Shown: piece by piece, positions 7,649 through 38,961 of the stretch
How the letters are laid out: every line of letters begins with the position of its first letter
Numbering within the stretch: position 1 is the first letter of the stretch
Assembly (NCBI GenBank): GCA_030697645.1
Contig: JAUYPI010000020.1
Coordinates: 1 to 38,961, forward strand
Reading direction: 5' to 3'
Origin: a bacterium
Lineage (GTDB): Bacteria; Patescibacteriota; Minisyncoccia; Phycocordibacterales; VMGT01
Length of the DNA stretch: 38,961 nt
Made by a program: the position numbers and the translations under genes
The notes under the pieces: model-generated
Seen by the model: the letters and a program-made list of their open reading frames with translations, nothing else
Told to the model about the DNA's origin: nothing
The model's database searches: none

Positions 7649-7700
7649 CAAAGTTTCCCGAGACACGGCGCAATCTGCGTACAACCCCCTGCGCTCTTGG

Positions 7701-7730
7701 CGTATCGTAGTTCACGCGCGTGTCAAGAGT
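7701..7730 (-). promoter_or_regulatory. Third, degenerate copy of the TTGACA-CGCGTG promoter-like motif
   Basis: The minus strand carries CTCTTGACACGCGCGTGA, nearly the same as the -35 and spacer at 17739-17767, but no good -10 lies at 16-18 nt. It points away from the macroglobulin gene, toward the 3' end of the M23 gene. It is probably a decayed copy or a regulator site rather than an active promoter. Confidence 0.3.
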
Positions 7731-7805
7731 CCGGCCCGGCCTTGAGAGCGCGCGCGGGAGTTGTGTGTTGTGCACATAGCAGCCGTGTTTGTGCGGACAG
7801 GCACC

Positions 7806-7814
7806 TGCTACAAT
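7806..7814 (+). promoter_or_regulatory. Extended -10 promoter of the macroglobulin gene
   Basis: TGCTACAAT is an extended -10 element located 9 nt before an in-frame GTG (7823) and 20 nt before ATG 7835. No convincing -35 accompanies it, which is usual for extended -10 promoters. It favours a start at 7823 or 7835 over the upstream end of the open frame (7697). Confidence 0.5.
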
Positions 7815-7834
7815 GTAGAGCAGTGAACGAGGAA

Positions 7835-10800: not shown

Positions 10801-13800
10801 TGTGTCTGCCGCGTTCAAGATCGAAATGCGCACAGACAAGGAGGAGTATATCGCAGGCGAGAGCATGCGCCTTGCGGTTGATGCGGACTATTACTTTGGC
10901 GTGCCGCTTGAGGAGGGGAGCGCGGTCTCATACACTCTGACGAGCCAGTCTTACTTTTTTGACCGATACAAGGGGCGCGATTTTGACTTTGGCAGCAGCT
11001 GGTATTACGACTACGATGGCGGCTATGGAGACCGGTTTGTACTCCGCGGCTCGACGGTGATGAATCAAAAGGGCGAAGCTCTGATAGAGCACCTGCTCAA
11101 TTTCGACGAACTTTTCAAGGAAGAAGCGCGGAAACAAAGTAAAATTTTCGTGGTAAACGTGACGGTGAAAAATCGCAATGGGCAGTCTGTCTCGGCGCAG
11201 AAGTCGTTTATCGTGCATCGCGGCGAGTTCTACCTTGACGTCCGCGCCGAGCCGCGCTTTGTCGGCGTGGGCGATTCGGCAGAGCTCGGAGTTAAGTCGG
11301 TGGATACAGCGGGCAAAGATGTCTCAGTGCGTGACGGCGTGATCGAGGTGAAGAAAATTACCTGGGAGAGTTTCAGGCGGCGTGAGGTGGACGGTGGCTA
11401 TTACTACCGATCGGAGAAAAAGGAAGAAGTGATCCGTGAGATACCATTTCGTACTGGTCGCGATGGGGTATTTGCGGGAGCGGTGACTCTTGAGAGAGAA
11501 GGGCAGTATGAAATTGTCGCGAGGGCGCTCGATGATCGCACCAACCGCGTCGAGGCAATCGAGAGCGTCTATGTCCACGGACCGCGCGCCGTTTCCGTGC
11601 GGCCGACGAACAACGAGACGCTCGACCTTGCGGTCGAGACGGATACGCTCGATGTCGGCGGCGTCGGGCGCTTCACGATCGAGTCGCCCTATCCGCGGGC
11701 AAAAGCACTCGTTGCGCTTGAGCGCGGAAAAATTTTCACCTACGAGGTGATTGACGTTGATCGTAATTTTCTCGAGTATACGTTCCCGGTCAAGGACGAG
11801 TACGTGCCGAATATCTACGCAACGGTTCTGCTCCTTTCGCCGGATCCGGCAATAAAGTATGGCCAAGTGAATTTCAAGGTGAACACGACGGAGCGGGAAC
11901 TCGACATCGAGGTGACCCCTGACAAGCGCACCTATCTTCCCGGGGAGGAGGTCGCACTCTCAATTGCGGCTCGCGACAGGCACGGCCGGCCAGTTGCCGC
12001 TGAGCTCTCGGTTGCCGTTGCGGACCTCTCGGTCCTGGCGCTCAAGGGCAATCCAAAGAAAAATCCCGTGGCGTTTTTCTACGCAGGTTCGCCCCTTGCG
12101 GTCGTCACATCGTCGAACGTGAAAAATATTCTTGAAGAGAAAGAGGTGCCGAGCGGCACCAAAGGCGGTGGAGGCGGCGACCCCAAGGACCTCGCGCGTC
12201 GCAAGCGCGGCGTCTTCAAAGATACGGCGCTCTGGGAAGGAATGGTGCGAACGGATGCATCCGGGAGAGCGAGTGTTCGCTTCACGCTTCCGGACAACCT
12301 GACGGCCTGGCAGATTGAGGGCCTCGGTCTGACGCGGGAGAGTGCGTTCGGCGTTGATTACGAGGAGATTACGGCACGGAAGGAACTCATGGTAGTGCCG
12401 CTCCAGCCCCGCTTTATCATCCCGGGTGATAGGTTCACGATCGGCGCGCAGGTATTTAACCAGACGACCGCAGACCAAGCGCTCGATGTCACCCTCGTCT
12501 CACCGACGCTCGAATTTCCGGGGAAACAGGAACTCTCCACCCATATCCGCCGCTCTGAATCGGCGACATTCTATTTTCCTGTCCGTGCGCCGCAGACTGT
12601 GCAGGATGGGAAGCATACGTTCACCCTCTCGGCACACAATCGCTCGTATGAAGATACGGTCGAGCAATCGATTCCGATTACGCGCAATGATACCTATGAG
12701 GCGGTCGCGACGGCTCACTTCACTCGCGAGGCGAGCGCGCGTGAGTACGTCTACCTGCCGGAGAATATCGAGCGGGATCGCGGCGGCGTCGGCGTCAGCG
12801 TCTCGGGTACGCTTGCGGTGTTCCTCTCGGATGCACTCAACTATCTTGCCTCCTACCCCTACGGTTGCAGCGAGCAGATCGCGAGCAAACTCTCCTCGGT
12901 CGCCGTCCTCAAGCGCGGGCTTAATCTTGAGAATGTGGGGGATGCATTTACGCCGAAACCGATTGTCTTTGACGGTCGCGAATACACGATAGACGAAGTG
13001 GTCGCGATCGGCCTCGCGCGCATGTATGAAAACCAGGCCGCTTCGGGCGGATTCACCTATTATGCGACCACAGAGCCGAGTTTCCACCTCACACTCTACG
13101 TGGTCAATACGCTCGTTGAGCTCGAGGCGGCGGGGTACACCATTAATCAGAATGTGCTCACCCGTGCGGCGCGATACCTACACACCACTCTGGTCCAAAC
13201 TCCTGATTTGAGCACGAACAAAGATACGATCATTCTCGCCAGCTACACCATTCTGCGCGTGCCGGGATCCGGTTTGTCTCGCGAGAAGGCTGATCTCGAG
13301 GCCCGTATTCAAAAAATCGTCGAAGACAAGCAGTATATTCGTGAGCACATAAACAACACCTCGCTCACGCACCTCGCGATGATTCTCTCACGTCCGTACC
13401 CAGCAGAGATCTCGATTGCGAGTAGCCGAAAAGACGAAGTGTATAAGACTCTCGAGAATCGCATTGACATTGACGCGCGCGGCGCGTTTCTCAGCGTGCA
13501 CCAGGGCAGGCTTCTGTGGGAGTACTATGAGACGCCGATTAAAGACACGGCGCTTCTCCTCAAAGCCCTGGTTGCGGACCGTCAGGAATCGCCCGTCGTG
13601 GACAAAGTGCTCCGCTGGCTCCTCAAGAGCCGCGCTAAAGACGGCGCCTGGGGGTCAACGAACAACACCGCCGCCGTCGTTGATGCGATGACCGATTTTC
13701 TTTCATGGAAGCGGGAGACGGAGTCGGATTTTGAGCTAAAACTCTCACGGGGCACTGATGCGGTGCAGACGTTTGATTTTGGCCCGGAGACGATACTCAA

Positions 13801-14656
13801 GACATTTTCCGCGTTTTTGCCGGTGGCCGATTTCACCCCGGGCACAATCGAAACGCTCAATTTTGACAAAAAGAATCGCACGACGACCGCGCCGAATACG
13901 TTTTACTATGACATGTCGCTTAAATATTATCTGCCGATTGACACGATTCCGCCGCGGGATGAGGGTTTTACGATTGAGCGTGAATTGTATCGGCTCGATG
14001 ACCAAGAGATGGAGGAGCCGGTGGCCGAAGGGAAAGTGGGAGACGTGCTCCGCGGGCGACTCACGGTTACCGTTTCAAAACCGAGAAATTTTGTAGCGGT
14101 GGAGGACTTTATTCCCGCCGGCACCGAGCTCGTGAACCTCAAGCTCGCGACTGAGGACCAGTCGCTCGCGGACGAGCGAGCGGGGAGCCGCGGGCATGAT
14201 AGCGGCTATGACTATTATGAAGGGGGTGAGTATTACGACGGAGGCGAGTATTACGATGGCGGCCGCGGTGCTCTCGACCATCCGTTTTCGACTGAGGTGC
14301 GTGCGAAAAACGATCGCGGCCCCTTTGCTCTATTGCGCACCATTGTCCGTTCACTCTCGCCGCAGCTCTTTGTGGCGTCGGTGCCGAACCGTCGCAAACT
14401 CGAAGCGCTCGAGGACGAAGCATATAGCCAGAAAGTCGCACGGCATCGCGTCCTTCGTCCTGACGCCGAGGAACTCCATGACGATCGGATTTTCCTGTTC
14501 ACGGAAGCACTCGCCCCTGGCGTGTACACCTATGATTATTTCCTTCGCGCGCTCATTCCAGGCACCTACCACCACCTGCCCGCCATCGTGAGTGAGATGT
14601 ACTATCCTGAAAACTTCGGCAGGACGCGAGGAGAGTATTTCCGCGTCGTCGAGTAA
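7835..14656 (+). CDS. Giant alpha-2-macroglobulin family lipid- or membrane-anchored protease trap
   Basis: The protein is about 2273 residues, against about 1650 for the E. coli YfhM type. A hydrophobic anchor (IRALFVLAALIIIASAGYFL) is followed by Big_5/MG-like beta-sandwiches. The MG2 hallmark YTDRPIYRPGQ is at about residue 899. The A2M signature GMVRTDASGRASVRFTLPDN is at about 1468, and the thioester motif PYGCSEQ at about 1678 (TGC at 12866). The reactive Cys and Gln are both intact, so covalent trapping of foreign proteases in the envelope is plausible. A Tyr/Gly/Asp repeat (YYDGGEYYDGG, near 14214-14270) interrupts the C-terminal region. ATG 7835 follows GAGGAA and the promoter at 7806-7814; GTG 7823 is an alternative. 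A PbpC-type protein lies downstream, the classic partner of bacterial macroglobulins. Confidence 0.93.
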   Translation: MNNNFLAPGRARAGLLWCLRLLRGPHAIRALFVLAALIIIASAGYFLLGDFGRRGERPRAYSAPFSLVPDKISQSAAIAISLPKGVTIALAEASERISFEPDIAGTWLTPEDSAGENERLVFAPREPLKLGLYYAVSVNTGAETLRHDFLVDEDPAIVAVFPAAGSEAPETTSVTVIFNRPMVPLTTLETLDTADIPVEIVPGTPGKFKWITTRNLQFIPETRLMRSANYTVRVKQGLVSMDGLPVAGTEQKFTTRHLRYEQMDSGQHGFAEPVRIRFNQPVDIEKTRARISVTKIEKSALPVAGQSDKVPAVTPGTMLQAPLPFIVTYGERSVYNDETEKSEAFLDTSVLEIYNSEDRFGREGLWDFDTSYSISVSGAYPIDGDVTLSEARQSSIFIPEVITSLSAESDRSTFVEPNLFDPEGTLIVEFAEVIDKEASTIKAEGLLRAEYGETCAADEVGRAYYGNECKKVPDKSSLVLHFDPRAFGRGESVPVRFEKIVNGDGLLLNASPIQKTITTYPSLVIYKMTPQDGAARAALTELVVCTSNPLAPATEENFAERLQSNFTVGLWNWQAPWRVGIADSRAPCAPGQFVNTIRYGLVPEYPYRFTLKLIDDFGEVASTALAFTSGSIERTARKFFHLNRMYNATSPEKTKFTYAVENLEYMDLSICEVSAQTMLRYSEGRPEATVTPSSLPCLTSETHRVELPRQYWTRNFFQIDLAHYIPDARARDHSRLGHFVLTLSHPEYRRLEWVYESAKGRYKDTPREQIFERTFVTVTNLAVAEKKVNRPINRYATDPHKDLTDAALTGDQNLYWVSTFGALAPKTGAKVVLYTLNEGVLREVARAETDGTGVARAPAVVNLFGAVVSAGSDSAIVTEHTDRLAWASSAVSSDRTYIYTDRPIYRPGQEVFIKGIYREGYDTDYRIPIGKKSTIAVRNARRETVLETEVELNEFGTFTAPLRLPADAALGTYSIGAFGGWAVFDVEEYVSAAFKIEMRTDKEEYIAGESMRLAVDADYYFGVPLEEGSAVSYTLTSQSYFFDRYKGRDFDFGSSWYYDYDGGYGDRFVLRGSTVMNQKGEALIEHLLNFDELFKEEARKQSKIFVVNVTVKNRNGQSVSAQKSFIVHRGEFYLDVRAEPRFVGVGDSAELGVKSVDTAGKDVSVRDGVIEVKKITWESFRRREVDGGYYYRSEKKEEVIREIPFRTGRDGVFAGAVTLEREGQYEIVARALDDRTNRVEAIESVYVHGPRAVSVRPTNNETLDLAVETDTLDVGGVGRFTIESPYPRAKALVALERGKIFTYEVIDVDRNFLEYTFPVKDEYVPNIYATVLLLSPDPAIKYGQVNFKVNTTERELDIEVTPDKRTYLPGEEVALSIAARDRHGRPVAAELSVAVADLSVLALKGNPKKNPVAFFYAGSPLAVVTSSNVKNILEEKEVPSGTKGGGGGDPKDLARRKRGVFKDTALWEGMVRTDASGRASVRFTLPDNLTAWQIEGLGLTRESAFGVDYEEITARKELMVVPLQPRFIIPGDRFTIGAQVFNQTTADQALDVTLVSPTLEFPGKQELSTHIRRSESATFYFPVRAPQTVQDGKHTFTLSAHNRSYEDTVEQSIPITRNDTYEAVATAHFTREASAREYVYLPENIERDRGGVGVSVSGTLAVFLSDALNYLASYPYGCSEQIASKLSSVAVLKRGLNLENVGDAFTPKPIVFDGREYTIDEVVAIGLARMYENQAASGGFTYYATTEPSFHLTLYVVNTLVELEAAGYTINQNVLTRAARYLHTTLVQTPDLSTNKDTIILASYTILRVPGSGLSREKADLEARIQKIVEDKQYIREHINNTSLTHLAMILSRPYPAEISIASSRKDEVYKTLENRIDIDARGAFLSVHQGRLLWEYYETPIKDTALLLKALVADRQESPVVDKVLRWLLKSRAKDGAWGSTNNTAAVVDAMTDFLSWKRETESDFELKLSRGTDAVQTFDFGPETILKTFSAFLPVADFTPGTIETLNFDKKNRTTTAPNTFYYDMSLKYYLPIDTIPPRDEGFTIERELYRLDDQEMEEPVAEGKVGDVLRGRLTVTVSKPRNFVAVEDFIPAGTELVNLKLATEDQSLADERAGSRGHDSGYDYYEGGEYYDGGEYYDGGRGALDHPFSTEVRAKNDRGPFALLRTIVRSLSPQLFVASVPNRRKLEALEDEAYSQKVARHRVLRPDAEELHDDRIFLFTEALAPGVYTYDYFLRALIPGTYHHLPAIVSEMYYPENFGRTRGEYFRVVE

Positions 14657-14717
14657 AAATGTGCGTAGATTTCGAAAGGGTCGAGCGTGTTCTGTCGGGC
14701 GGTACCGCGCAAATTTT

Positions 14718-15524
14718 ATGGGCGTTCAATCATTACGATACATACTCCGTAGAGTATTTATTTATGGAGCGCTGATATATATCGGGCTAGGAATAATATT
14801 GTCTCTCTTTCAAAATCGATATATCTATTACCCCCCAAAGGGGCAAAAGTTTGAAGCATGCCCCGCGTTTCGTACCGCCGAGCAGGTGCATGTGCAGGGG
14901 ACACGATTCTATTACAAGAAGCACTCTGATACCCTTGTCGTTTTTTACCACGGTAATGCCGGTTCGGCGTGCGATCGGGCGTTTCTTGCGGGCCTTTTTG
15001 AGCGTCTCGGCCTTTCGTATCTATTCGTAGAATACACTGGCTACGGAGGCGACGGATTGCGACCAAGCACCGGCCGACTATTCGCTGACGTGGTGCATGT
15101 GAACGAGTTTCTCCGACCGCTTGATTATAAGGTGCTCATTCTCGCCGGGGAGAGTATTGGCACCGGTGCCGCGCAATATCACACGACACTTACACGGGCG
15201 GATAAACTGCTGCTCGTAGCACCCTTTCCAACGCTTGCTCGTGTCGCGCGGCGTCACTTTCCGTTTGCCATCTATCCAGTTTCGCTGCTTTTGCAAAAAG
15301 ATTTCGATAATCCTTCGTGGCTTTCGAAGTTCAAGGGTGAACTCATGATTATTCACGGCAGTAAAGACACGGTTATTCCGATCGCACTCGGCAGAAAACT
15401 TTTTGATGCTGCGTCAGCGGCGAGGGGGGAGTTTGTTGAGATTGAGAACGCGGGGCATAACGATATCTATGACAATCACACAACGGAAGAACGCATGGAA
15501 AAATTTTTACGTATCGAAGGATAA
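14718..15524 (+). CDS. Membrane-anchored alpha/beta hydrolase (serine hydrolase)
   Basis: This protein of about 268 residues has an N-terminal membrane segment (RVFIYGALIYIGLGIILSLF) and an alpha/beta-hydrolase domain resembling the BEM46/FrsA-like group. Visible elements are the oxyanion loop FYHGNAGS, the nucleophile elbow LAGESIGTG (Ser in GxSxG), the acid in IIHGSKDTVIP and the catalytic His in NAGHNDIY. The substrate is unknown; lipid or acyl-ester hydrolysis in the envelope is possible. The open frame extends upstream into the macroglobulin gene, but ATG 14718 just before the hydrophobic segment is the sensible start, 61 bp after the macroglobulin stop. It probably shares that transcript. 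It ends 13 bp from the convergent pbpC stop. Confidence 0.88.
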   Translation: MGVQSLRYILRRVFIYGALIYIGLGIILSLFQNRYIYYPPKGQKFEACPAFRTAEQVHVQGTRFYYKKHSDTLVVFYHGNAGSACDRAFLAGLFERLGLSYLFVEYTGYGGDGLRPSTGRLFADVVHVNEFLRPLDYKVLILAGESIGTGAAQYHTTLTRADKLLLVAPFPTLARVARRHFPFAIYPVSLLLQKDFDNPSWLSKFKGELMIIHGSKDTVIPIALGRKLFDAASAARGEFVEIENAGHNDIYDNHTTEERMEKFLRIEG

Positions 15525-15537
15525 AATATGCGTGCGG

Positions 15538-17676
15538 CTACTCGAGCATTATTGTTATGTAGATCGTCTCTGTAACGGAAGCGCTTGTTGCGCTGATTGT
15601 GTAGGTGCCCGGCGCGATCGGGGTCCAGGGGAATGCTCTCCCGTTCCCGATATACACCCCATTTACCCGCCATTCCACCGCTTCTCGGGCTTCAAGCGGC
15701 ACGGTCATGCCGGGCTCAAAGAGGAGCACATCACGATCGTGCGGGTGAGTGATGAACGTCGCGTCGTCTCGGAGGAGCAGCATGCGCGTCTCTTCGTAGT
15801 TGTCGCCTGGTAGACCGTAGGCGACACCCTCATCGGTCGACCTGAATTCCTGCAACCCGTCGAAGTCGAATGACGTGTTGCGATTGTATGCTGAAGTTAG
15901 CATGATTTCCATCGCGTCGTGCCAGATGCGTCCGGCACCGGACTGGCCGGAGACGTGCGGCATAGGGGTATTGTCGTGATTGCCTATCCAGACGCCGACG
16001 AGGAAATCAGGGGTGTAGCCGATAGTCCAGCTGTCGTGGTAATCCCGCGACGTGCCAGTCTTGAGCGCGTAGTGCTCCGTGGGCAAATTGAGGAAGCTCT
16101 TGATGCCGAATTGCTCGACGCCGGTCGCACGGTCCGAAAGTATGCGGTTCAGGAGCGCAACGTACGGCGTGTCTGCCACGCGTTTTTCCTGCACAAACTC
16201 CCGCTCCATCGGCGGCGTTGTGATCGACACTAATTTATTATCATCCGTATCGCGGGAGATGATGAGCGGCTTCAGTATGCCGCTGTGCGCGAAGAGCGTA
16301 TAGTAGTGCGAGAGCGTGAGGAGGTCCATCTCGAGCCCGCCGAGGGCGATGCCGAGCGAGTATGACTCGAGGGGCTGGAGTGGCTTGAATCGAAGGGTCT
16401 CGGTGAGGAAATCGTAGAAGAGAGGCAGACCGACGTACTCGAGCACTTTGACGCTCGGCACGTTGAGGCTCTCTGACAGGGCGGCATGAAGCGTCACGTC
16501 TCCTCGGTAGCGGCCGTCGTAATTTTTCGGATAAAACTCGAATCCCGTTCCGATTTCGTATTTATACTCCCGATCCTCGACGAGCGTATACGGCCGTGCG
16601 CCTTTTTCGAGGGCCTTGAGGTAGAACAGGGGTTTTGCCGTGGAGCCGATGGGGCGCGGTTCAAGCGCCATATTTATCTGCGCGCCGGGGATGGCGGCGC
16701 GTGGGTACGGAGAACCGACGATTGCGAGCAATTCGTTTTCCGGAAGTTTGATGACGACGATCGCCCCATTTTTTGCGCCTTCAAACTGACTCGAGAGTAG
16801 ATGTTCGCGAAGCAGTGCCCGGAGGCGCTCGGTGAGTGCACCCTCGAGCGTGAGAGTGCAGAGTTTGGTGCAGCGAGCGCCAAACGCGCTCGCTTCAAAC
16901 GCTGTATCTCGCTCGTACGCGCGCTCTTGCTTGAGTGGGAGGCGCGGACTCCGCGCGCTCTCGCCGTTTTTTGTCGTAAATGTTTTTCCCGCGCGAGCGA
17001 GGAGCGTCGCCGCGGCGCGCTCATTTTCGATCGTACCGGGATACCGGATACTCGGTTTCCCAATGGCGGCGACGAGCGTCGCAGCTTCTTCGCTCGAGAG
17101 CGCCGCGGCGGCTCGGCCGAAGTAATACCTGCTTGCTTCCTCAACTCCCTGCGCCTGGTTGCCGAAATACGCGCTGTTCACATACATCGCGAGAATTGTT
17201 TTTTTGGACGACCAGAGCTCGAGCGAGAGAGCGTAGAGCGCCTCGAGCGCTTTGTGCATGAGCGTGCGTTTGTTCTCGGTCTTGAGGAGCACTTTGACGA
17301 GCTGCTGGGTGAGCGTGCTCGAGCCGTAGCGTTTTCCGGAGTGTACGAGCGCGAGCGCGTCGCGCGCGATGCTCGCGGGGTTCGCGCCGACGTGGTAGTA
17401 GAAAAGGCGATCCTCTTTTTTGAGAAGGAGTTGTCTAAAGTTTTCCGGCGGCGTCTCAATCGGCTGCATATAGTAGCCGCTCTCGTTCGGCGAGAGCTTG
17501 ATGAGTACCCCGGCGCGATCGAGTATCCGCGGTGATTCGAGTTTTTGATACCGTGCGCGGAGATTACCGGCGAGCACGAACGTCACGATGATCACAGCGC
17601 AGGCACCACAAGCACAGACGGTGTATAGTTTTGTTGTTCTTAGACGTTGCAGTGCGCGTTGAAAAAGTACGTTCAT
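15538..17676 (-). CDS. pbpC: Bifunctional class A penicillin-binding protein, PbpC (PBP1C) type
   Basis: This is a 712-residue peptidoglycan glycosyltransferase/transpeptidase with a membrane anchor at about 18-36. The GT51 domain (about 55-225) shows the catalytic Glu88 in KEDRLFYYHVG, GSSTLTQQLVK at 118-128 and the KALEALYALSLE helix. The transpeptidase domain has Ser345 in GSTAKP, SLN at 403-405 and KTGT at 539-542. The C-terminal ~70 residues (about 640-712, ending VEWRVNGVYIGNGRAF...) match the BiPBP_C Ig-like domain typical of PbpC. In E. coli, pbpC lies next to the macroglobulin gene yfhM. Here the two are in one neighbourhood but on opposite strands, with a hydrolase between. All active-site motifs are intact. 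The start at 17676 is supported by the promoter at 17739-17767. Confidence 0.95.
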   Translation of the reverse strand: MNVLFQRALQRLRTTKLYTVCACGACAVIIVTFVLAGNLRARYQKLESPRILDRAGVLIKLSPNESGYYMQPIETPPENFRQLLLKKEDRLFYYHVGANPASIARDALALVHSGKRYGSSTLTQQLVKVLLKTENKRTLMHKALEALYALSLELWSSKKTILAMYVNSAYFGNQAQGVEEASRYYFGRAAAALSSEEAATLVAAIGKPSIRYPGTIENERAAATLLARAGKTFTTKNGESARSPRLPLKQERAYERDTAFEASAFGARCTKLCTLTLEGALTERLRALLREHLLSSQFEGAKNGAIVVIKLPENELLAIVGSPYPRAAIPGAQINMALEPRPIGSTAKPLFYLKALEKGARPYTLVEDREYKYEIGTGFEFYPKNYDGRYRGDVTLHAALSESLNVPSVKVLEYVGLPLFYDFLTETLRFKPLQPLESYSLGIALGGLEMDLLTLSHYYTLFAHSGILKPLIISRDTDDNKLVSITTPPMEREFVQEKRVADTPYVALLNRILSDRATGVEQFGIKSFLNLPTEHYALKTGTSRDYHDSWTIGYTPDFLVGVWIGNHDNTPMPHVSGQSGAGRIWHDAMEIMLTSAYNRNTSFDFDGLQEFRSTDEGVAYGLPGDNYEETRMLLLRDDATFITHPHDRDVLLFEPGMTVPLEAREAVEWRVNGVYIGNGRAFPWTPIAPGTYTISATSASVTETIYITIMLE

Positions 17677-21732: not shown

Positions 21733-23103
21733 ATGGCTTCTTCCCTGCGAGATTCGTTGTCCTATACAACGCGCGCGTCATGTCGCGTATGCGGCGCGGC
21801 GGCATTCCTCGATGTGCTCTCACTCGGGGAGTTGTTTGTTTCTAATTTTATTGACGCAGGCCTCTCGGGTACGCGCGCGCCGCTTGAGCTCGTACTCTGT
21901 GCGAGAGAGCGGGGCGGCTGCGGACTCGTGCAACTTCGGCACAGCGTGGATCAGGATGCGCTCTACCGCGCGTATTGGTACCGCTCCGGCACAAATGTGA
22001 GCATGCGTAGCGAGCTTGCCGCGATTGCTCGGAGGGCAGAAGAGATCGCGGTGCCCCAGCGCGGTGATATCGTGCTCGACATCGGCGCCAACGACGGCAC
22101 ACTCCTTCGGAGTTACCGAGCGCGCGGCGTCATCCGCGCGGGCTTTGAGCCCGCGCGGAATTTGCGCGTGGATGCCGAGGTCGGCGGCGCGAGCATCATC
22201 AGCGATTTTTTTAACACACGATCATTTTTTGCGCGTTTCCCGGCGCGGCGCGCAAAAGTCGTAACCGCGATCGCGATGTTCTATGACCTTGAGGATCCGA
22301 ACGCCTTTGTTGCCGATCTTGCCTCGGTTCTCGCGCCGGATGGACTCGCGATTATTCAGATGAGCTACTTGCCGCTCATGCTCTCACAGAATGCATTCGA
22401 TAACATTTGTCATGAGCACCTTGAGTATTATGCGCTCGGGTCGCTCGAATTCCTTCTCGCACGGCATGGTCTCGAGATATTTGACGTTGAACTTAACGAG
22501 GTCAATGGCGGCAGTTTTCGCACCTATGTGCGTCATCGTGGAGCGCGGGCTCCTTACACGACGGACGGGCACGAGCGCGTTGCGGCGCTCCGGATTGATG
22601 AGGTTCTGCTCGCTCTCGAGACGCCCGCACCGTATCTCGCCTTTGCTTCGCGCGTGGAGCGTGTCAGGGCTGAGCTCGTCAGCTTCCTCGCGCGCGAGGT
22701 TGCGGCAGGAAAGCAAATTTATGTCTATGGCGCTTCAACGAAGGGGAATACGTTACTTCAGTATTTCGACCTCGACACACGCCTCATTAGAGGAGCGGCC
22801 GAGCGCAACCAACTGAAATGGGGCTTACGCACCGTCGGGACGGACATCCCTATAATTTCCGAGGTTGAAGCGCGCTCCGAGAATCCTGACTACTTTCTCG
22901 CTCTGCCGTGGCATTTCATGCCCGAGTTTCTTGAGCGCGAACGTACATTCCTCGAACGTGGGGGGAAGTTTATTGTGCCTCTCCCGGAGTTCCGCGTGGT
23001 CGGGCTTGACGAAATTCGAAATACGAATATCGAAATCCGAAACAATATCGAAATCAAAATGTTCCAATGTCCGAAACACGAGCGTCGTGTTTTGAGCGTT
23101 TGA
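21733..23103 (+). CDS. SAM-dependent sugar C-methyltransferase
   Basis: The 456-residue protein has the three-part layout of NDP-hexose C-methyltransferases such as TylC3 or NovU. These are an N-terminal Zn-binding part (CRVCG at 17-21 and a later CGL), a class I SAM fold with VLDIGANDGTLL, and a C-terminal part with YVYGASTKGNTLLQYFDL. The conserved FDNICHEHLEYYALGSLEFLLARHG segment is present. It would add a methyl group to a keto-deoxysugar nucleotide, giving a branched sugar. The native protein probably ended near PLPEFRVVG. The last ~28 residues (IRNTNIEIRNNIEIK...) are encoded by a palindromic repeat, so the stop has been displaced. It is first in the polysaccharide locus and directly behind the promoter at 21643. 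Confidence 0.88.
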   Translation: MASSLRDSLSYTTRASCRVCGAAAFLDVLSLGELFVSNFIDAGLSGTRAPLELVLCARERGGCGLVQLRHSVDQDALYRAYWYRSGTNVSMRSELAAIARRAEEIAVPQRGDIVLDIGANDGTLLRSYRARGVIRAGFEPARNLRVDAEVGGASIISDFFNTRSFFARFPARRAKVVTAIAMFYDLEDPNAFVADLASVLAPDGLAIIQMSYLPLMLSQNAFDNICHEHLEYYALGSLEFLLARHGLEIFDVELNEVNGGSFRTYVRHRGARAPYTTDGHERVAALRIDEVLLALETPAPYLAFASRVERVRAELVSFLAREVAAGKQIYVYGASTKGNTLLQYFDLDTRLIRGAAERNQLKWGLRTVGTDIPIISEVEARSENPDYFLALPWHFMPEFLERERTFLERGGKFIVPLPEFRVVGLDEIRNTNIEIRNNIEIKMFQCPKHERRVLSV

Positions 23104-23157
23104 ATTTTGGTCATTCGGATTTGTTTCGAATTTCGTGCTTCGATATTCGGATTTCAA
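23011..23157. repeat. Word-type palindromic element 1 (CGAAAT words)
   Basis: The left arm is made of variants of CGAAATNCGAA and the right arm of their complements (TTTCGAATTTCG, CGATATTCGGATTT), around the core CACGAGCGTCGTG (23077-23089). The left half and core are translated as the tail of the methyltransferase. Confidence 0.8.
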
Positions 23158-23199
23158 GAAGACGGGGGACATCAATGTCTCGGATTTGTTATCCAATGT

Positions 23200-24666
23200 A
23201 TGGAAACAGGGCGGCGCAGAATCAATTACGGCGGCATGTTTGCCGGGCTGCTCTGCGTTGCGCTCGGTATATTTTTGGGCGCGGCGACCATGCGGGTTCT
23301 CATGGCGTACATGCTCGTCGGCGGCGACGATTATCCTCCTCAGGTAGTTCGCGGACTACATCGAGAGGTGAGCCAAGTGAGACTGAATAATCCAGCACGT
23401 ACCCCCGAACCTCGCCTCATCGCTCGGGAGGGCGGGGCACGAGGCATTTCCTACGGCCTCGCTGCGCTTTCTGGTCGCGCCCTCGCGTCTACGAGCGGCG
23501 TATTTTCGGAGACAGAAGTATATGCTCGCGACTCCGTGGCGAAAATGCCGGACGAGCGTATCCCTCCGGGACCGTTTCGCACGGGAGCCACAGCGCCGAT
23601 TTTCGACGACGGTCTTACACCAGGTTGGGATGACTGGTCTTGGAGTGTAGAGCGCGAGCATGTCGCAGGGAGTGATGCGCCAGCCGGGGAGCGCTTACTC
23701 GAGGCGCGGTTTCTCGCGCCGTGGGCCGGACTTTATTTTCACACCGCTGGTTTTGCACCGTACGTTAATGACGTGCTCGCGCTCTCGATTAGGACGGATG
23801 ACGAGACCCCCCCAATTCTTTCAGTCGAGTTTTTCGAGCAGCCGGGCCAAGGACTCGGCGCGGTTGCTCTCGCGAGCTATGTAGCTGGGGGCGTACTCTC
23901 GCGCGGGGTTTGGGAAGAGGCGCGGATCCCCCTCGCTGATCTCCGCGCCGCGTGGGGGACGACGACTGGTTTTGCCATTGTCAGCGACTCGCGAGCGAGC
24001 GTGATGCTCGACCAGATTTACATTACTCCTGGGATCGGCTCGACGCGCTTCCTCCCCATGCCTCCGTCGCCGGTGCAGCCCGTTTTACTCGCGGACGTTT
24101 TCGGTGCGCCATCGCTCTACCGTGCGGCGCCTGCCTGGAGTGACTGGAAGAGCGCGTACGGCGAGCACCGCTTTGAGGACGGAGTGCTTCGCATTGAGAC
24201 AAAACAACCGGAAACTGCGACGCTGATCGAGCTTGTGGGGAGCGGGCACTGGCGCGATTACGAGACAGCGATGCGTCTCAATTGGCATCGTGGGGCCTCT
24301 ACGATTGAAACGATTGTGCGATTTGCCGATGAGCGCAACTATCTCGCGTGCGCGTGGAATCTGCACAGCACACACCTTCATGCGGAAATCAGGAACATTC
24401 ATGACGGCGAGATGAGCCAGGTTTCGAGCTGGAGCGGCGCTCTGCCTCTGCCGTATTTTGAGTCGTGGCGCGATATTGAGATCGGCGTGCGCGTTGTCGG
24501 AGATAGCATCGCATGTCTCCATAATGGCGAGGCGGTACTCAGCGGCACCATTCTCGCAGACGCCCCTCTGCCCGAGCGCGGCGGCATTGCGCTCAAAACG
24601 TGGGAGCCGGAGGCGGGGTACACGATACTTGCTATTGAAGACGTCGAAGTGTTTGAGGCGCGGTAA
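23200..24666 (+). CDS. Membrane-anchored protein with two carbohydrate-binding-like beta-sandwiches
   Basis: The protein is about 488 residues. One N-terminal transmembrane segment (MFAGLLCVALGIFLGAATMRVLMAYML) is followed by a linker. A jelly-roll resembling CBM/CIA30-type modules (about 105-275, with ISIRTD- and IPLADL-like strands) follows. The second jelly-roll, of LamG or 3-keto-disaccharide-hydrolase (DUF1080) type, ends GGIALKTWEPEAGYTILAIEDVEV. No catalytic residues are assigned. Position just before the processive synthase suggests it holds or guides the glycan outside the membrane, as BcsB does in cellulose secretion; this is inference. ATG 23200 is preferred because the upstream part of the frame is repeat DNA. 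Confidence 0.65.
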   Translation: METGRRRINYGGMFAGLLCVALGIFLGAATMRVLMAYMLVGGDDYPPQVVRGLHREVSQVRLNNPARTPEPRLIAREGGARGISYGLAALSGRALASTSGVFSETEVYARDSVAKMPDERIPPGPFRTGATAPIFDDGLTPGWDDWSWSVEREHVAGSDAPAGERLLEARFLAPWAGLYFHTAGFAPYVNDVLALSIRTDDETPPILSVEFFEQPGQGLGAVALASYVAGGVLSRGVWEEARIPLADLRAAWGTTTGFAIVSDSRASVMLDQIYITPGIGSTRFLPMPPSPVQPVLLADVFGAPSLYRAAPAWSDWKSAYGEHRFEDGVLRIETKQPETATLIELVGSGHWRDYETAMRLNWHRGASTIETIVRFADERNYLACAWNLHSTHLHAEIRNIHDGEMSQVSSWSGALPLPYFESWRDIEIGVRVVGDSIACLHNGEAVLSGTILADAPLPERGGIALKTWEPEAGYTILAIEDVEVFEAR

Positions 24667-24700
24667 TTTTTTCGGCGTTGGGCATAATGGTTGGTTAAGC

Positions 24701-24825
24701 AAATTTTCAATTTTCAATAAATTTTCAATGACTCAATGACGGACGACGTCGTGTTTGAAAATTGATTCATTGCAAAATTGATTGAAAATTGATAATTGAA
24801 AATTGATAATTGATAATTGAAAATT
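24701..24825. repeat. Word-type palindromic element 2 (TTTTCAAT words)
   Basis: The left arm iterates ATTTTCAA and the right arm iterates TTGAAAATTGAT. They flank the core GGACGACGTCGTGTTTGA near 24741-24757. It fills the gap between the carbohydrate-binding gene and the GT2 fusion. Confidence 0.85.
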
Positions 24826-24887
24826 CCGACACGATATGCGAGCTTTGACGTTTAATATCGATGCACTGTCTTGAGTCTTGAGTATTT

Positions 24888-27092
24888 ATGAACTCCCCCC
24901 TTCTCACCATCGTCACCCCCACCTTTAACGAGGAAGTCAATGTACTTCCGTTCCTCGCCGCGCTGCGGAGAGCGATTGATGGCGCGTGCGACTACGAAGT
25001 GCTGTTCGTTGACGATAGCACTGATTCGACCCCAGAGATCGTGCTTTCCGAGGGGAAACGCGATCCGCGCGTGCGGCTGCTGCACCGGCCGCGGGAGTTG
25101 CGAGACGGTCTCGCCGGCGCGTATAGAGACGGTTTTCATGAAGCGCGCGGCACCTATATCTGCTGTCTTGATGCAGACTTGCAACACCCACCGGAGAAAA
25201 TTTCCGAGTTACTCGCTCGTGCGAGGACGCAAGATGCTGACGTCGTTGTTGCGAGTCGATATATCGTGGGAGGCAGCGGTACCGCAGGTCTTGACAATAT
25301 GTACCGTAAGGCGGTCTCGGTCGGCTCGAAGTATCTCGCGCAGTTTCTATTCAAACCGCTCCGGCTCTCGAGTGATCCGGGGGGCGGATTTTACCTCTTT
25401 CGCCGCGAGATCATCGACGGCGTCGTGCTCCGGCCGCTCGGGTATAAGATGCTGATGGAGATCATGGTGCGCTGCGCTGTCTCGCGCGTCGTTGATGTAC
25501 CATACACGCTCCGCGCTCGCGAGCGCGGCACAAGCAAGGCGACACTTAAGCAAGGAGTCGCGTTTTTGCATCACTGCGCGTGGCTCTATACGACGACGCC
25601 GGGCATCGGCTGGCTTCGGCTCCGCGCGTTTTTCATTAGACCTCATTTTTCTCGTCTTGCCGAGAAAGCAGACATTTCGCTACGAAATGGATTTCGAAAG
25701 AAGTCTACTGCCGCACTATTCTCAGCGTTCGTGCTATTCGCGCCGTTCTCTCTCGGGTTTGCGCTCGGCGGATCAATTTTTGCGGGCATTGCCGTCGTGT
25801 TTGCTTTTTGGATGTCGCTTCAAGGACTTTTCCACGCGTACCTCCTGCTTGATGCGTGGCAGGATCCGGAGCGAGCACGAGGACGAGGGTCCCCGCGCTT
25901 GTTCCTCGCGCCTCGGCTCTCGTTTACCGCGCTTATTCCTGCGCGGTATGAGTCGGCGGTGATCGGTGAGACCATTCGGACTGTTGCCGCAATGGACTAT
26001 CCTTCTGATCTTACCGAGGCGCTCGTCATTTGCCGCAGGGACGACAGTGAGACTATCCGCGCGGCGCGCGAGGCGATTCAGGCACTCGGCGCGAGTGCGC
26101 GCGTGCGCCTCGTCGTTTTCGACGGCTACCCGATTAATAAACCGCACGCGCTTAATATTGGACTCCGTGAGGCAGAGGGTGAGGTCGTCGTGATTTTTGA
26201 TGCCGAGGATGAGCCGCATCGCGATCTCTATAGAATAGCAAACACGGTTATTGAGCGGGATCGCGCCGACGTCCTCCAGTCGGGCGTTCAGCTTATGAAT
26301 CATACGTCGCGCTGGTACGCAACATTTTGCGTGCTCGAGTACTTTTTTTGGTTTAAGTCGGCGCTCCACGTCTTTGCGCGCAGCGGTTTCGTGCCGCTCG
26401 GCGGCAACACGGTCTTCTTTCGTCGCAGCGTCCTTCAGGAGGTGGGCGGTTGGGACGCGACGTGTCTCACGGAAGATGCGGATATCGGCGTGCGTCTCAG
26501 CGTGCGCGGTGCGCGCATCAGCGTCATTTATGATGAGGAGCACGTGACGCGCGAGGAAGCGCCGCCGACGCTCGGGAGCTTCATTCGCCAACGCACGCGC
26601 TGGAACCTCGGCTTCCTCCAGATCGTGCGCAAAGGTGATTGGCGGGGCTTGAGGACGCTTCGGCAGAAAGCGCTCGCGATGTATGTCCTTCTATGGGCCA
26701 TGGCGCAGGCGGTCATGTTTTTCTATGCGCCGTTTGCGATGTGGACGTTTGCTGCGGCGAAAGCGCCTGTTTGGATCGCCCTTGCGACGAACGTGCCGTT
26801 TGCAATCACGCTGTTGCACCTCGCGCTCTATGTCGTAGGGCTTCGTGAATTTACTCGTCGCTTTGAGCTCTTGCATCCTTGGTGGCTCACGGCGCGCCTC
26901 GTACTGTGCTTTTATGCTTTTCAGGTCGTACTTGGTATGGCCGCGTTTCGTGCTGTGTATCGTTTCGCGCGCGGGGAACTTTCGTGGGAGAAGACGCCGC
27001 ATACGAATGCGCATCGAGCACCTCTCGCGCCTCAACCTGCACCGGCACCGCTTGAGCCCGTGCCGTACCGAGGGGCGGTGGAGTATGCGTAA
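24888..27092 (+). CDS. Fusion of a DPM1-type GT2 and a cellulose-synthase-like GT2
   Basis: This 734-residue protein carries two complete family-2 glycosyltransferase domains. The first (about 5-235) is dolichol-phosphate-mannose-synthase-like: FVDDSTDSTPE at 40-50, CLDADLQHPP at 93-102 and SDPGGGFYLFRR. Such enzymes charge a polyprenyl phosphate with a sugar. A membrane segment (about 277-320) leads into the second domain (about 345-580). It is of the processive cellulose/hyaluronan-synthase type: DAED at 438-441, TED at 528-530 and QRTRW (QxxRW) at 568-572. Further transmembrane helices follow (about 597-695) and a Pro-rich tail. One polypeptide could thus make both a lipid-linked sugar and a beta-glycan. 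The next gene encodes a GT39/GH8 protein, and GT39 enzymes use exactly such lipid-linked donors. Confidence 0.9.
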   Translation: MNSPLLTIVTPTFNEEVNVLPFLAALRRAIDGACDYEVLFVDDSTDSTPEIVLSEGKRDPRVRLLHRPRELRDGLAGAYRDGFHEARGTYICCLDADLQHPPEKISELLARARTQDADVVVASRYIVGGSGTAGLDNMYRKAVSVGSKYLAQFLFKPLRLSSDPGGGFYLFRREIIDGVVLRPLGYKMLMEIMVRCAVSRVVDVPYTLRARERGTSKATLKQGVAFLHHCAWLYTTTPGIGWLRLRAFFIRPHFSRLAEKADISLRNGFRKKSTAALFSAFVLFAPFSLGFALGGSIFAGIAVVFAFWMSLQGLFHAYLLLDAWQDPERARGRGSPRLFLAPRLSFTALIPARYESAVIGETIRTVAAMDYPSDLTEALVICRRDDSETIRAAREAIQALGASARVRLVVFDGYPINKPHALNIGLREAEGEVVVIFDAEDEPHRDLYRIANTVIERDRADVLQSGVQLMNHTSRWYATFCVLEYFFWFKSALHVFARSGFVPLGGNTVFFRRSVLQEVGGWDATCLTEDADIGVRLSVRGARISVIYDEEHVTREEAPPTLGSFIRQRTRWNLGFLQIVRKGDWRGLRTLRQKALAMYVLLWAMAQAVMFFYAPFAMWTFAAAKAPVWIALATNVPFAITLLHLALYVVGLREFTRRFELLHPWWLTARLVLCFYAFQVVLGMAAFRAVYRFARGELSWEKTPHTNAHRAPLAPQPAPAPLEPVPYRGAVEYA

Positions 27093-27094
27093 CG

Positions 27095-27233
27095 AAATTT
27101 TCAATTTTCAATTCTCAATTTTCAGTAAATTTTCAATGAATTAATTTTCAAACCACGGACGTTGCTCGTGCGTTTGAAAATTGAAAAATTGCGTCATTGA
27201 TTGAAAATTGATCATTGAAAATTGAAAATTATT
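27095..27233. repeat. Word-type palindromic element 3 (TTTTCAAT words)
   Basis: The same architecture as element 2: ATTTTCAATTCTCAATTTTC on the left and GAAAATTGATCATTGAAAAT on the right, around CACGGACGTTGCTCGTGCG (about 27154-27172). It fills the gap between the GT2 fusion and the GT39/GH8 gene. Confidence 0.85.
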
Positions 27234-27246
27234 ATTGAATCCTCTC

Positions 27247-29898
27247 ATGTATAAGCGTGCAACAATTTTACTTCTTGCCATTCTTGCGATCGCCGCCATG
27301 GCGCACGGCGTGAACATGTTCCACTTCCCGTATTATGAGAACGACGAGGGGACATACCTCTCGCGCGCGTGGTCCCTGCTTCGCGACGGGTCACTCTCAC
27401 CCTACACGTATTGGTATGACCATGCGCCGGGTGGCACATTCCTGCTCGCCTTTTGGGCAATAATATCCGGAGGATTTTTTACGTTCGGCCAAACCGCGAT
27501 TGACTCTGGACGCGTATTCATGCTCGTGCTTCACGTCGGAAGCGTCGGTCTGCTTTTTTACATCACGCGGCGGCTTGCGGGGACTCTCCGTGCTGCGACG
27601 ATCGCTGCGTTTCTTTTTGCGCTCTCGCCGCTCGCGCTCTACTACGCGAGGCGCGTGCTCCTCGACAACATGATGACGTTTCTTGCGCTCGGCTCCGTGG
27701 CACTTCTCCTTCGGGAGCGGTTGACGCTCCGCACGGTGCTCGGGAGTGCACTACTCCTCGGCCTCGCAATCCTCACAAAAGAGAACGCAATTTTTTTCAT
27801 TCCACCGTTTTTGTACCTGCTTTTCACGCGCACCGATGCGGCGAACCGGCGTTTCAGTATCGCACTTTGGTTTACAGCATGGGGCAGTATCGTCGCGTCG
27901 TATTTTCTCTACGCCCTGCTCAAGGGCGAGCTCTTTGTCGGAAGCCGAGCAGGGGAGGCAGGAGCACACGTGAGCCTCATCGGCACGCTTGCGATGCATC
28001 TCGGTCGAGGCGCCGCGGCTCCCTTCTGGAGCAGTGCCAGCGACTTCGCCGGAGCGTTTCTCACGTGGGTCGAGCGCGATGCCTTCATTATTATATTTGG
28101 CGCGATGGCTACGCTCGCGGGCGTCGTATTGGCCGTGAGGCGCCCGGCGTTTCGCTCTGCCTCATTCCTCTCGCTCTCAGCGTGGGCGTTCCTGCTGCGC
28201 GGCAAGCTCGTGCTCGATTTTTACGTGCTGCCGCTTTTGCCGCTGCTCTCACTCGTGATTGCGATGTGCTCTGAGGAGCTGCTCCTCTGGCTTGGGAGGC
28301 TTTCCCAACGTACTCGCCGCATCAGGGCGGGAGCCGCCGTCATTTTTTTTCTCGGCACAGTTGTGGGCATAGCCGTTCTTTTTCCGCATCCATTGTCTAT
28401 ATTTGCGCCATATACGCGCAACGAGACAAGAAACCAGCGCGAGGCGGTTGCGTATATAAAGGAGCACCTTCTCGCTCGGTCTTTCATTGCGATAGATCAA
28501 TATGCCTATCTTGATCTCCATGATACACGCTCATCCTCCGGTGAGCGGGTGTTTCCAAACGCGCATTGGTTTTGGCAGATTGAAACGGATCCTGCGGTGC
28601 GCGTCGGCGTGTTTGGCAACGATCCGCGAGCGCTCGAGTATGTCGCGCTCTCCCATGAGATGGTGCGGCAAATGCAGGGCGGCGGGCAGGTGTTTCTCCG
28701 TGAGGCGCTCGCGCACGCCGATCTCATTAAAGACTGGACGGCGAGCACGACAAGCTACCTTGACCTTGAGGATGACGTCAGCACGAACGGCGACTGGGCG
28801 CAGCTCTACGAAGTGCACGACGAACGGCGGATCGAACTCGAGAGAGCATGGACGTACTACAAAGATGCGTTCATTAAAAATTACGGGCAAGTTGTGGATC
28901 CGTGGAATGGCATCACGACATCCGAGGGTCAGGCATACGCGCTCTTGCGCGCGGTCTGGATGGATGACCGCCCGATGTTCGACGGTCTCTTCGCGTGGAC
29001 GCGCGACCACCTTGAGTTCCGTGGCGTAGACCATCTGTTTTCCTGGCGTTGGGGGAGAGGGGAAAACGGTGTTGAGCGCGTGCTTGATTCTGAAGCCGCG
29101 TCCGACGCGGATCAAGATATCGCGCTTGCGCTTCTTCTCGCGCATCGGAGGTGGGGTGAGGATGCGTACCGCACTGCGGCAGAGGAGATAATCCGGGATA
29201 TCTGGCGGAGGGAGGTAGTGCGGGTCGCTGGCAGATACTATCTTACGGCAGGTCCGGGTGCAGCGCGGCCGGATGGGTACCTTCTTAACCCCTCCTACTT
29301 ATCACCCGCCGCATACCGACTTTTTGCAGAAGCCGACCCAGAGCACGACTGGCTCGCGCTTGCGAAGGATTCCTACGCGCTTCTTGAGCGTCTCGGGAGC
29401 GAGTCTGCCCGAGGCAATCTGACGGGGCTCCCGCCGAACTGGACGCTTCTCGACGGAGAGACGGGAGCACTCCTCTCTGCCGCGCACTACATCAGCACAC
29501 ACGCAGATGCGTACGGATACGATGCATTTCGTGCGCTCTGGCGGGTGGCGCTCGATGCGCTCTGGTTTAAAGAACCGCGCGCGGAGCGTTACCTTCGATC
29601 GGTCGCGCCGTTTTTTGAGCGCGAGTGGCAAGAGCACGACACTTTTGCAAGCGTGTATCGTCGCACGGATGGAGTACGGCTTCTCGTGCACGGCGACCTC
29701 GCTCCTGTCGCAGGCGCCATCAGCGCACTCTTCCGAACGAACCCGGACCTCGCGCACGAGATCGAACGGCGCATTTTTGACGCTACGTTCAACGCCGAAG
29801 GTTTTTGGGGTGAGCGCACGAGCTATTACGATCAAAACTGGGCGTGGCTTGCTACTGCTCTCCTCTCGGGTGAGACGCGAGACGAGTGGGGGAAATAA
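27247..29898 (+). CDS. Fusion of a GT39-type membrane glycosyltransferase and a GH8 endoglucanase
   Basis: The protein is about 883 residues. The N-terminal ~400 residues are a multi-spanning GT39/PMT_2-type transferase. Its first loop, YYENDEGTYLSRAW, carries the Asp-Glu expected of ArnT/PMT-like enzymes, which take sugars from polyprenyl phosphate. The C-terminal part (about 530-880) is glycoside hydrolase family 8: WNGITTSEGQAYALLRAVW with the catalytic-acid Glu at about 560, LFSWRWGRG, SEAASDADQDIALALLLAHRRW with the candidate base Asp, LNPSYLSPAAYRLFAEAD, and GLPPNW. GH8 includes BcsZ, the endoglucanase required for cellulose secretion. ATG 27247 is chosen; the upstream TTG lies in repeat DNA. 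Together with the preceding GT2 fusion it gives a likely beta-glucan-type export system in which trimming or transfer is built into one protein. Confidence 0.88.
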   Translation: MYKRATILLLAILAIAAMAHGVNMFHFPYYENDEGTYLSRAWSLLRDGSLSPYTYWYDHAPGGTFLLAFWAIISGGFFTFGQTAIDSGRVFMLVLHVGSVGLLFYITRRLAGTLRAATIAAFLFALSPLALYYARRVLLDNMMTFLALGSVALLLRERLTLRTVLGSALLLGLAILTKENAIFFIPPFLYLLFTRTDAANRRFSIALWFTAWGSIVASYFLYALLKGELFVGSRAGEAGAHVSLIGTLAMHLGRGAAAPFWSSASDFAGAFLTWVERDAFIIIFGAMATLAGVVLAVRRPAFRSASFLSLSAWAFLLRGKLVLDFYVLPLLPLLSLVIAMCSEELLLWLGRLSQRTRRIRAGAAVIFFLGTVVGIAVLFPHPLSIFAPYTRNETRNQREAVAYIKEHLLARSFIAIDQYAYLDLHDTRSSSGERVFPNAHWFWQIETDPAVRVGVFGNDPRALEYVALSHEMVRQMQGGGQVFLREALAHADLIKDWTASTTSYLDLEDDVSTNGDWAQLYEVHDERRIELERAWTYYKDAFIKNYGQVVDPWNGITTSEGQAYALLRAVWMDDRPMFDGLFAWTRDHLEFRGVDHLFSWRWGRGENGVERVLDSEAASDADQDIALALLLAHRRWGEDAYRTAAEEIIRDIWRREVVRVAGRYYLTAGPGAARPDGYLLNPSYLSPAAYRLFAEADPEHDWLALAKDSYALLERLGSESARGNLTGLPPNWTLLDGETGALLSAAHYISTHADAYGYDAFRALWRVALDALWFKEPRAERYLRSVAPFFEREWQEHDTFASVYRRTDGVRLLVHGDLAPVAGAISALFRTNPDLAHEIERRIFDATFNAEGFWGERTSYYDQNWAWLATALLSGETRDEWGK

Positions 29899-33132: not shown

Positions 33133-33156
33133 ATATCGAAGCACGAAATCGCGTAA

Positions 33157-33238
33157 CATTTGACATGTGACCTTTGACATTTGACGACGACAAACGCTCT
33201 CGTTAGTGGTCAACGGTCAAATGTTACAGGTCAAATGT
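33157..33238. repeat. Word-type palindromic element 4 (TTTGACA words)
   Basis: The left arm (33157-33186) is built from ACATTTGAC variants and the right arm (33209-33238) from GTCAAATGT variants, around an ACGACGACAAACG centre. It separates the isomerase gene from nth. Confidence 0.8.
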
Positions 33239-33270
33239 CGTAGACTTTTGTTTCGGATTTGAGAACGATC

Positions 33271-36912: not shown

Positions 36913-37143
36913 AAGTTTAAAACGCAAAGCGCAGCGCGTAAAACAGCAGCGCAAAATTCCAAGCTCCAAACGTAAGCTCCAATTTCCAACCAACAAGCTC
37001 CAAACAAATTCCAATGATTCAAATTCCAATTTCCAAACACGCACGTTTGAGATTTGGAGTTTGAGATTTGTTTGGAGACGGGTTTTTTGGAATTTGTAAA
37101 TTCGTTTTTCGCTTTTCATTTTTCGCTTTGAGTTTTGAGTTAT
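36913..37143. repeat. Word-type palindromic element 5 (CCAAGCTC words)
   Basis: The left arm mixes AAAACGCAAAGCG and then CCAAGCTCCAA/TTCCAA words. The right arm carries their complements (TTGGAGTTTGAG, TTTTTCGCTTTTC). The core is AAACACGCACGTTTGAG (about 37035-37051). It occupies the whole gap between the c-like and b-like genes. Confidence 0.8.
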
Positions 37144-38019: not shown

Positions 38020-38157
38020 TAATTTTCAATTTACAATTTTCAATTTTCAAAAAATTTCCAATGCTTCAATGGTCCAATGACGGACGACGTCGTGTTTGAA
38101 AATTGAGTAATTGAAAATTGATTGAAAATTGTAAAATTGAAAATTGTAAATTTTACA
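38020..38157. repeat. Word-type palindromic element 6 (TTTTCAAT words)
   Basis: It has the architecture of elements 2 and 3, with the core GGACGACGTCGTGTTTGA (about 38082-38099) identical to that of element 2. It fills the gap between the b-like and delta-like genes. Confidence 0.85.
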
Positions 38158-38742: not shown

Positions 38743-38800
38743 ATAAATGACGCGTTTGCCACGTTTTTTTGTCTGACATCCGATGTCCCCCGTCGTGCGA

Positions 38801-38961
38801 AAGCTCCAAGCTCCAAAAAACAAGCTCCAATCCAAATAAATTCCAAGCTCCAACCAACAAGCTCCAAACAAATTTCAAATTCCAATGCATCAAATCTCAA
38901 ACACGCACGTCGTGTTTGGAAATTGAAATTTGAATCATTGGAATTTGTTTGGAAATTGTTG
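38801..38961. repeat. Word-type palindromic element 7 (CCAAGCTC words), cut by the window end
   Basis: The left arm repeats AAGCTCCAA and TTCCAA words. The core is CAAACACGCACGTCGTGTTTG (38898-38918, inexact palindrome), and the right arm (TTTGGAAATTGAAATTTG...) runs to the last base of the window. It uses the same words as element 5. Confidence 0.8.

Follow-up and report, generated by a model that had tools for sequence, protein, structure and literature searches.

The two-gene cassette and its locus

The window is the complete contig C20 (JAUYPI010000020.1, 38,961 nucleotides) of a 1.03 Mb Patescibacteriota genome (GCA_030697645.1) with a completeness of 96.5%. It contains four consecutive plus-strand genes encoding a sugar methyltransferase, a membrane-anchored protein called here P2, a fusion of two GT2 glycosyltransferase domains (GT2N and GT2C), and a fusion of a GT39 glycosyltransferase with a GH8 glycoside hydrolase domain. 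The four open reading frames, announced in a preliminary description of the window, were recovered at the same coordinates (Table 1), and Pfam bore out both fusions and the QxxRW motif. Neither fusion is an artefact of assembly or reading frame, because the same architectures recur in independent genomes. The evolutionary unit is the pair of GT2-GT2 and GT39-GH8 genes and not the set of four. This pair, the cassette, is best read as a machine of two polypeptides by which an extracytoplasmic glycan is built and decorated (probability about 0.6).

The GT2-GT2 fusion protein

Pfam assigns residues 7-175 of this protein to Glycos_transf_2 and residues 346-573 to Glyco_tranf_2_3. A profile of seven GT2-GT2 fusions relates GT2N most closely to the dolichol-phosphate-mannose synthase of P. 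furiosus (5mlz, 1.3e-49) and also to ArnC (1.8e-24), and relates GT2C to cellulose synthase. The fold of the structure model (predicted local distance difference test, pLDDT, 81; predicted template modelling score, pTM, 0.60) agrees with these assignments. The top Foldseek match of GT2N is again 5mlz, and 5mm1 is matched with a root-mean-square deviation of 2.4; GT2C matches BcsA (4p00) and the Chlorella virus hyaluronan synthase. In both sequence and fold GT2N belongs to the DPM1 type of GT2 enzymes, which places it among the polyprenyl-phosphate sugar synthases (DPM1/ArnC/GtrB). GT2C carries the motifs DAED (438-441), TED (528-530) and QRTRW (568-572), and DAED, TED and QxxRW are kept in all 15 fusions compared.

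GT2C scores 57.3 bits against the NCBIfam CelA model TIGR03030 (cut-off 699.1). Its best NCBIfam relative is the PgaC/IcaA model TIGR03937, still with only 96.6 bits against a cut-off of 422.3. The FFCGS motif is absent from GT2C, and no PilZ domain was found in the GT2-GT2 protein by Pfam or elsewhere in the genome.

The GT39-GH8 fusion protein

The second protein combines PMT_2 (PF13231, residues 63-200, 1.4e-8) with Glyco_hydro_8 (PF01270, residues 538-799, 1.3e-49), and its structure model has a pLDDT of 89 and a pTM of 0.80. The GT39 part has about 11 helices, and GT-C oligosaccharyltransferases are among its fold matches. Nine polar residues (D37, E38, D62, H63, R139, R140, D144, K182 and E232) are invariant in all 31 aligned fusions. 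The PF13231 match above cut-off, the GT-C fold and the acidic D37-E38 pair in the first outer loop together identify a GT-C enzyme of the kind that uses lipid-linked donors. From the model we infer that, if the N-terminus lies inside, the invariant residues lie in or near the outer loops and the C-terminal GH8 domain would be on the same outer side.

The GH8 domain has the BcsZ/CMCax/CelA fold (TMt 0.78-0.85) and is closest to BcsZ/CMCax. Its score against the NCBIfam BcsZ model PRK11097 is 145.4 bits, below the cut-off of 299. The fold and the catalytic pair Glu564/Asp763, which aligns with that of CelA, identify it as a GH8 enzyme; since both residues are intact, cutting by the window protein is probably possible. 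Among the GT39 fusions, the window included, 9 of 31 have another residue in place of the general acid (Glu564 in the window), as against 1 of the 33 other GH8 proteins in the comparison (Fisher p = 0.005, uncorrected for relatedness, on rows that are not independent). The losses fall in separate parts of the GT39 tree (L121; L125/L131/L136; L129; L135; L137; L138; L140). The GT-C residues are retained in the aligned fusions, including those with a degenerate GH8. The transferase therefore seems to be what is under selection, and in the fusions the GH8 barrel may often be kept as a module that binds the backbone. A GT-C decorator with an outer carbohydrate-binding domain for the polymer backbone is known in the GT136 ribofuranosyltransferase (PMC11127046).

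Three loci (L123, L125 and L128) have tandem GT39-GH8 duplicates beside a single synthase. The upstream copies cluster on the GT39 tree, and some members of their group lack the GH8 glutamate (L125_5921, L131, L136).

Recurrence of the cassette

A first scan of genome contigs with the single GT2-GT2 protein as query gave no match. A collection-wide scan with a GT39-GH8 profile yielded 80 loci, and the GT39 tree comprises 68 GT39 domains, the window included. Thirty-three of the 68 are fused to GH8, and 30 of these 33 adjoin a GT2C synthase on the same strand, in loci that had been picked by similarity to GT39-GH8 and not to GT2. The synthase is fused to GT2N in 15 of the 30 and is GT2C alone in the other 15. 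The expectation that the genes would be neighbours in related genomes thus holds for the two fusion genes.

Record titles assign the loci to Roizman-, Woese-, Pace-, Amese-, Levy-, Moranii-, Andersen-, Magasanik- and Doudnabacteria and to Saccharimonadia, although single loci can carry a wrong label through contaminated bins (L122, for example, has the title Methylophilaceae). In Actinomycetota, Chloroflexota and one Parcubacterium the synthase, GT39, GH8, a DPM-like GT2 and sometimes GtrA are unfused neighbours. The actinomycetotal loci L159 and L176 have GT2C, GT39, a DUF4397 protein and GH8 as separate genes, L159 with a DPM-like GT2 as well; the order is GT2N-GtrA-GT2C-GT39 in Chloroflexota (L149, L150) and GT2C-GT39-GH8-GT2N/GtrA in L143. 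In L022, GtrA directly follows GT39-GH8. On the GT39 tree, a quick tree with many weak branches, the GH8 fusion requires at least 6 changes and the GT2N-GT2C fusion at least 11. The parts have therefore been joined or split repeatedly, as would be expected of proteins that work together. In L159 (Subtercola vilae, 11890-13530) GH8 and a class F sortase share one open frame, which adjoins the DUF4397 protein, GT39 and GT2C.

GH8 homologues occur mainly in two settings. The first is the cassette itself, in which a GT2N-GT2C fusion of about 710-760 residues is followed by a GT39-GH8 fusion of about 860-890 residues (L022, L083, L084, L085, L088, L089). In the second, an unfused GH8 precedes a cellulose-synthase-like GT2, a PMT_2 protein and sometimes a DPM-like GT2 (L023-L027, L029, L086, L087, L090, L091, L096-L098). 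Despite its similar logic the second arrangement was not counted as the same cassette, because its synthase and GT2C are only distant relatives. Other fusions, LPG_synthase_TM-GH8 and PMT_2-LysM, are found in L028. GH6 proteins are encoded close to several GH8 synthase clusters (L026:2637-4559, L090:11728-, L091:7262-, L095:3303-).

Proposed mechanism and alternatives

The mechanism proposed for the cassette builds on the domain identities, the folds, the conserved active-site residues and the recurrent fusion and neighbourhood. GT2C would polymerise a beta-type backbone from a nucleotide sugar, presumably processively, and extrude the chain through its own membrane helices. GT2N would charge polyprenyl phosphate with a sugar on the inner face, and a flippase encoded away from the cassette (the genome has one GtrA) would turn the lipid-sugar over. 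The GT-C domain of GT39 would then transfer the flipped sugar onto the emerging backbone, which GH8, tethered on the same outer face, would hold for the GT-C site. A GH8 with an intact Glu/Asp pair, as in the window, could in addition trim or release chains. The logic of a lipid-linked sugar used by GT39 and the role in polysaccharide synthesis and export, both suggested in the preliminary description, are supported.

Several observations weigh against this mechanism. GH8 homologues are rare, with 7 of 384 genomes in the class and 23 of 380 in the phylum having one, and none was found in the two same-family genomes searched. No flippase gene lies next to the cassette in the window, and the only GtrA gene of the genome is on another contig. 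The PMT_2 score of GT39 is modest, its acceptor could be a protein or a lipid, and GT2C may not be processive. Finally, the genes of the locus are separated by 142-221 bp holding palindromic repeats, so that they may not be co-transcribed.

The preliminary description had likened the locus to the bacterial cellulose synthesis (Bcs) systems. In such a reading GT2C would make cellulose or a mixed-linkage beta-glucan, GH8 would be the equivalent of BcsZ, P2 would replace BcsB, and GT39 and GT2N would act elsewhere. The closeness of the GH8 fold to BcsZ/CMCax and the alignment of GT2C with BcsA in sequence and fold, a QxxRW synthase paired with a BcsZ-fold GH8, are what a Bcs-like system would have. 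However, the cassette is not a Bcs system, because it has no PilZ domain, FFCGS motif or BcsB and its synthase falls far below the CelA cut-off, so that the suggested cellulose or beta-glucan backbone is not supported. Its GH8 is joined to a GT-C enzyme and in many copies catalytically dead, the GH8 family also includes chitosanases and xylanases, and GT39 and GT2N are tied to the cassette across phyla. A Bcs-like glucan is thus an unlikely product.

GT39 could instead be a protein O-glycosyltransferase fed by GT2N, with the synthase and GH8 forming a separate, adjacent polysaccharide path. GT39/PMT is the family of protein O-mannosylation, and GT2N is closest to dolichol-phosphate-mannose synthase. 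This explanation is nevertheless improbable: GT39 is covalently fused to GH8 across Patescibacteria, and nearly all fused copies lie beside the synthase, neither of which a protein glycosyltransferase needs. It is very unlikely that GH8 serves chiefly for offence or nutrition, hydrolysing host or environmental polysaccharide, and has only an incidental linkage to synthesis genes, as the intact catalytic residues in the window and the GH6 genes near some GH8 loci might suggest, since it is membrane-tethered, fused to a glycosyltransferase, recurrently placed beside a synthase and degenerate in about a third of the fusions.

Comparison with known systems

By analogy, the cassette would work as if a synthase-dependent system had been coupled to a three-component decoration system. 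The three-component systems (GtrA/GtrB/GT-C, CsbB-GtcA-YfhO and the GT136 ribofuranose system, PMC11127046) likewise combine a polyprenyl-phosphate-sugar synthase with a GT-C transferase, and a further likeness is that the GT-C enzyme bears an additional outer domain. In the window the synthase and the GT-C enzyme are encoded together. GtrA is near some cassette homologues; only certain relatives (L022, L122, L143, L149, L150) have it adjacent or in fusion. In contrast to these systems, the cassette has its synthase fused to a processive-type GT2 and its GT-C enzyme fused to GH8. The PgaC/IcaA poly-GlcNAc synthases are also short GT2 enzymes with membrane helices, but the cassette has no PgaB or PgaD neighbours and carries a GH8 domain in place of the PgaB deacetylase/hydrolase. 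The clostridial ccsZABHI cellulose operon (PMC7710045) is similarly a synthase operon of mosaic make-up that does not belong to the Bcs type and includes a glycosidase; CcsZ, however, is a GH5 enzyme, and that operon has O-acetylation genes where the cassette has GT39 decoration. Listeria PssZ, a GH126 protein according to the literature, was dropped as a GH8 comparison.

Searches of the open-access literature yielded no paper describing either a GT39-GH8 fusion or this gene set, an absence that is weak evidence. We tentatively suggest that Patescibacteria, Chloroflexota and Actinomycetota share a not yet described synthase-dependent glycan system in which a GT-C/GH8 chimera is the side-chain transferase; its GH8 domain would serve foremost in backbone recognition, hydrolysis being optional and lost several times. 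If so, the dead GH8 domains on intact GT-C enzymes would clearly exemplify a hydrolase that has come to guide a transferase.

Host contact in Patescibacteria may be governed by their surface glycans, of which little is known biochemically. With its catalytic parts named and two natural fusions, a cassette present in many lineages is a small expressible target for finding the polymer.

Local neighbours and other features of the window

The four genes do not stand out as an alien island, their G+C content (0.57-0.60) and codon usage being within the range of the other genes of the window. Profiles of the methyltransferase and P2 placed neither beside the cassette in any other locus examined, and the unit of four genes originally envisaged was rejected.

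The methyltransferase has the architecture of the TylC3/NovU C-methyltransferases, and no genes for nucleoside diphosphate (NDP)-4-keto-6-deoxysugars lie beside it among the Pfam-scanned genes of the window. A second PF08484 methyltransferase adjoins an NDP-sugar short-chain dehydrogenase/reductase on contig C14. Contig C18 encodes a GDP-mannose 4,6-dehydratase (gmd), so 4-keto-6-deoxy sugars may exist in this organism; nothing ties such sugars to the cassette. The C-methylated branch sugar proposed earlier found no support, as the methyltransferase has no linkage to the cassette.

P2 has no Pfam match above cut-off. Its likelier start, METGRRR, lies at position 23191, and the protein has a single N-terminal hydrophobic segment (residues 11-45). 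Its C-terminal domain (P2C) weakly resembles PF06439 (0.13 for the window protein, 3.8e-8 for a relative) and relatives of its N-terminal domain (P2N) weakly resemble CBM30, so that the two look, weakly, like secreted beta-sandwich modules. P2 gave no match to E. coli BcsB at E 10, and its proposed role as a BcsB analogue was abandoned. About 16 of 368 class genomes have P2C (19 are matched by either P2 domain, the window genome included), and it is mostly the tail end of proteins some 530 residues long. Two of these, tested with Pfam, have a NodB deacetylase domain and lie next to a chitin-synthase-like GT2 (PF03142), on contig C18 of this genome and at L080:7442-10530. In many class genomes a GT2 is similarly paired with a P2C-domain protein, which makes this a second recurrent polysaccharide set.

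Table 1. Coordinates of the features in the window
Feature	Position	Strand	Basis or remark
Sugar methyltransferase (TylC3/NovU-like)	21733-23103	+	Pfam Methyltransf_13/_23/_14; local neighbour, not a conserved cassette part
P2, membrane-anchored, two beta-sandwich-like domains	23191-24666	+	P2N ~23587-24069, P2C ~24139-24657; local neighbour, not a conserved cassette part
GT2-GT2 fusion	24888-27092	+	Pfam Glycos_transf_2 and Glyco_tranf_2_3
GT2N, DPM1/ArnC-like polyprenyl-phosphate sugar synthase domain, residues 1-240	24888-25607	+	PF00535, profile, Foldseek
GT2C, processive-type GT2 synthase with membrane helices, residues 340-700	25905-26987	+	PF13641/PF13632, motifs, Foldseek
GT39-GH8 fusion	27235-29898	+	Pfam PMT_2 and Glyco_hydro_8
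GT39/PMT_2 GT-C membrane glycosyltransferase domain, residues 1-395	27235-28419	+	PF13231, model, invariant residues
GH8 domain, presumed outer face, residues 535-880	28837-29874	+	PF01270 1.3e-49; BcsZ/CMCax/CelA fold
GH8 general-acid Glu564 codon (TTSEGQ)	28924-28926	+	Aligned to CelA Glu95
GH8 general-base Asp763 codon (YGYDAF)	29521-29523	+	Aligned to CelA Asp278
Palindromic repeat copies	24702-24836, 27096-27230, 38020-38152		
Palindromic repeat variants	22990-23190, 33133-33260, 36973-37136, 38800-38961		

The intergenic palindromic repeats form a family of about 130 nt with 7-bp periodic arms (AATTTTCAATTTTCAAT ... CGTGTTTGAAAATTG ... ATTGAAAATTGAAAATT). One repeat pattern has 26 exact matches on both strands of the genome, and its reversed control has 0. 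The repeats split the genes of the window locus; in most relatives the cassette genes overlap or nearly touch.

Elsewhere in the window (7697-17676), a bacterial alpha-2-macroglobulin of 2319 residues adjoins penicillin-binding protein 1C, the yfhM-pbpC pairing of E. coli.

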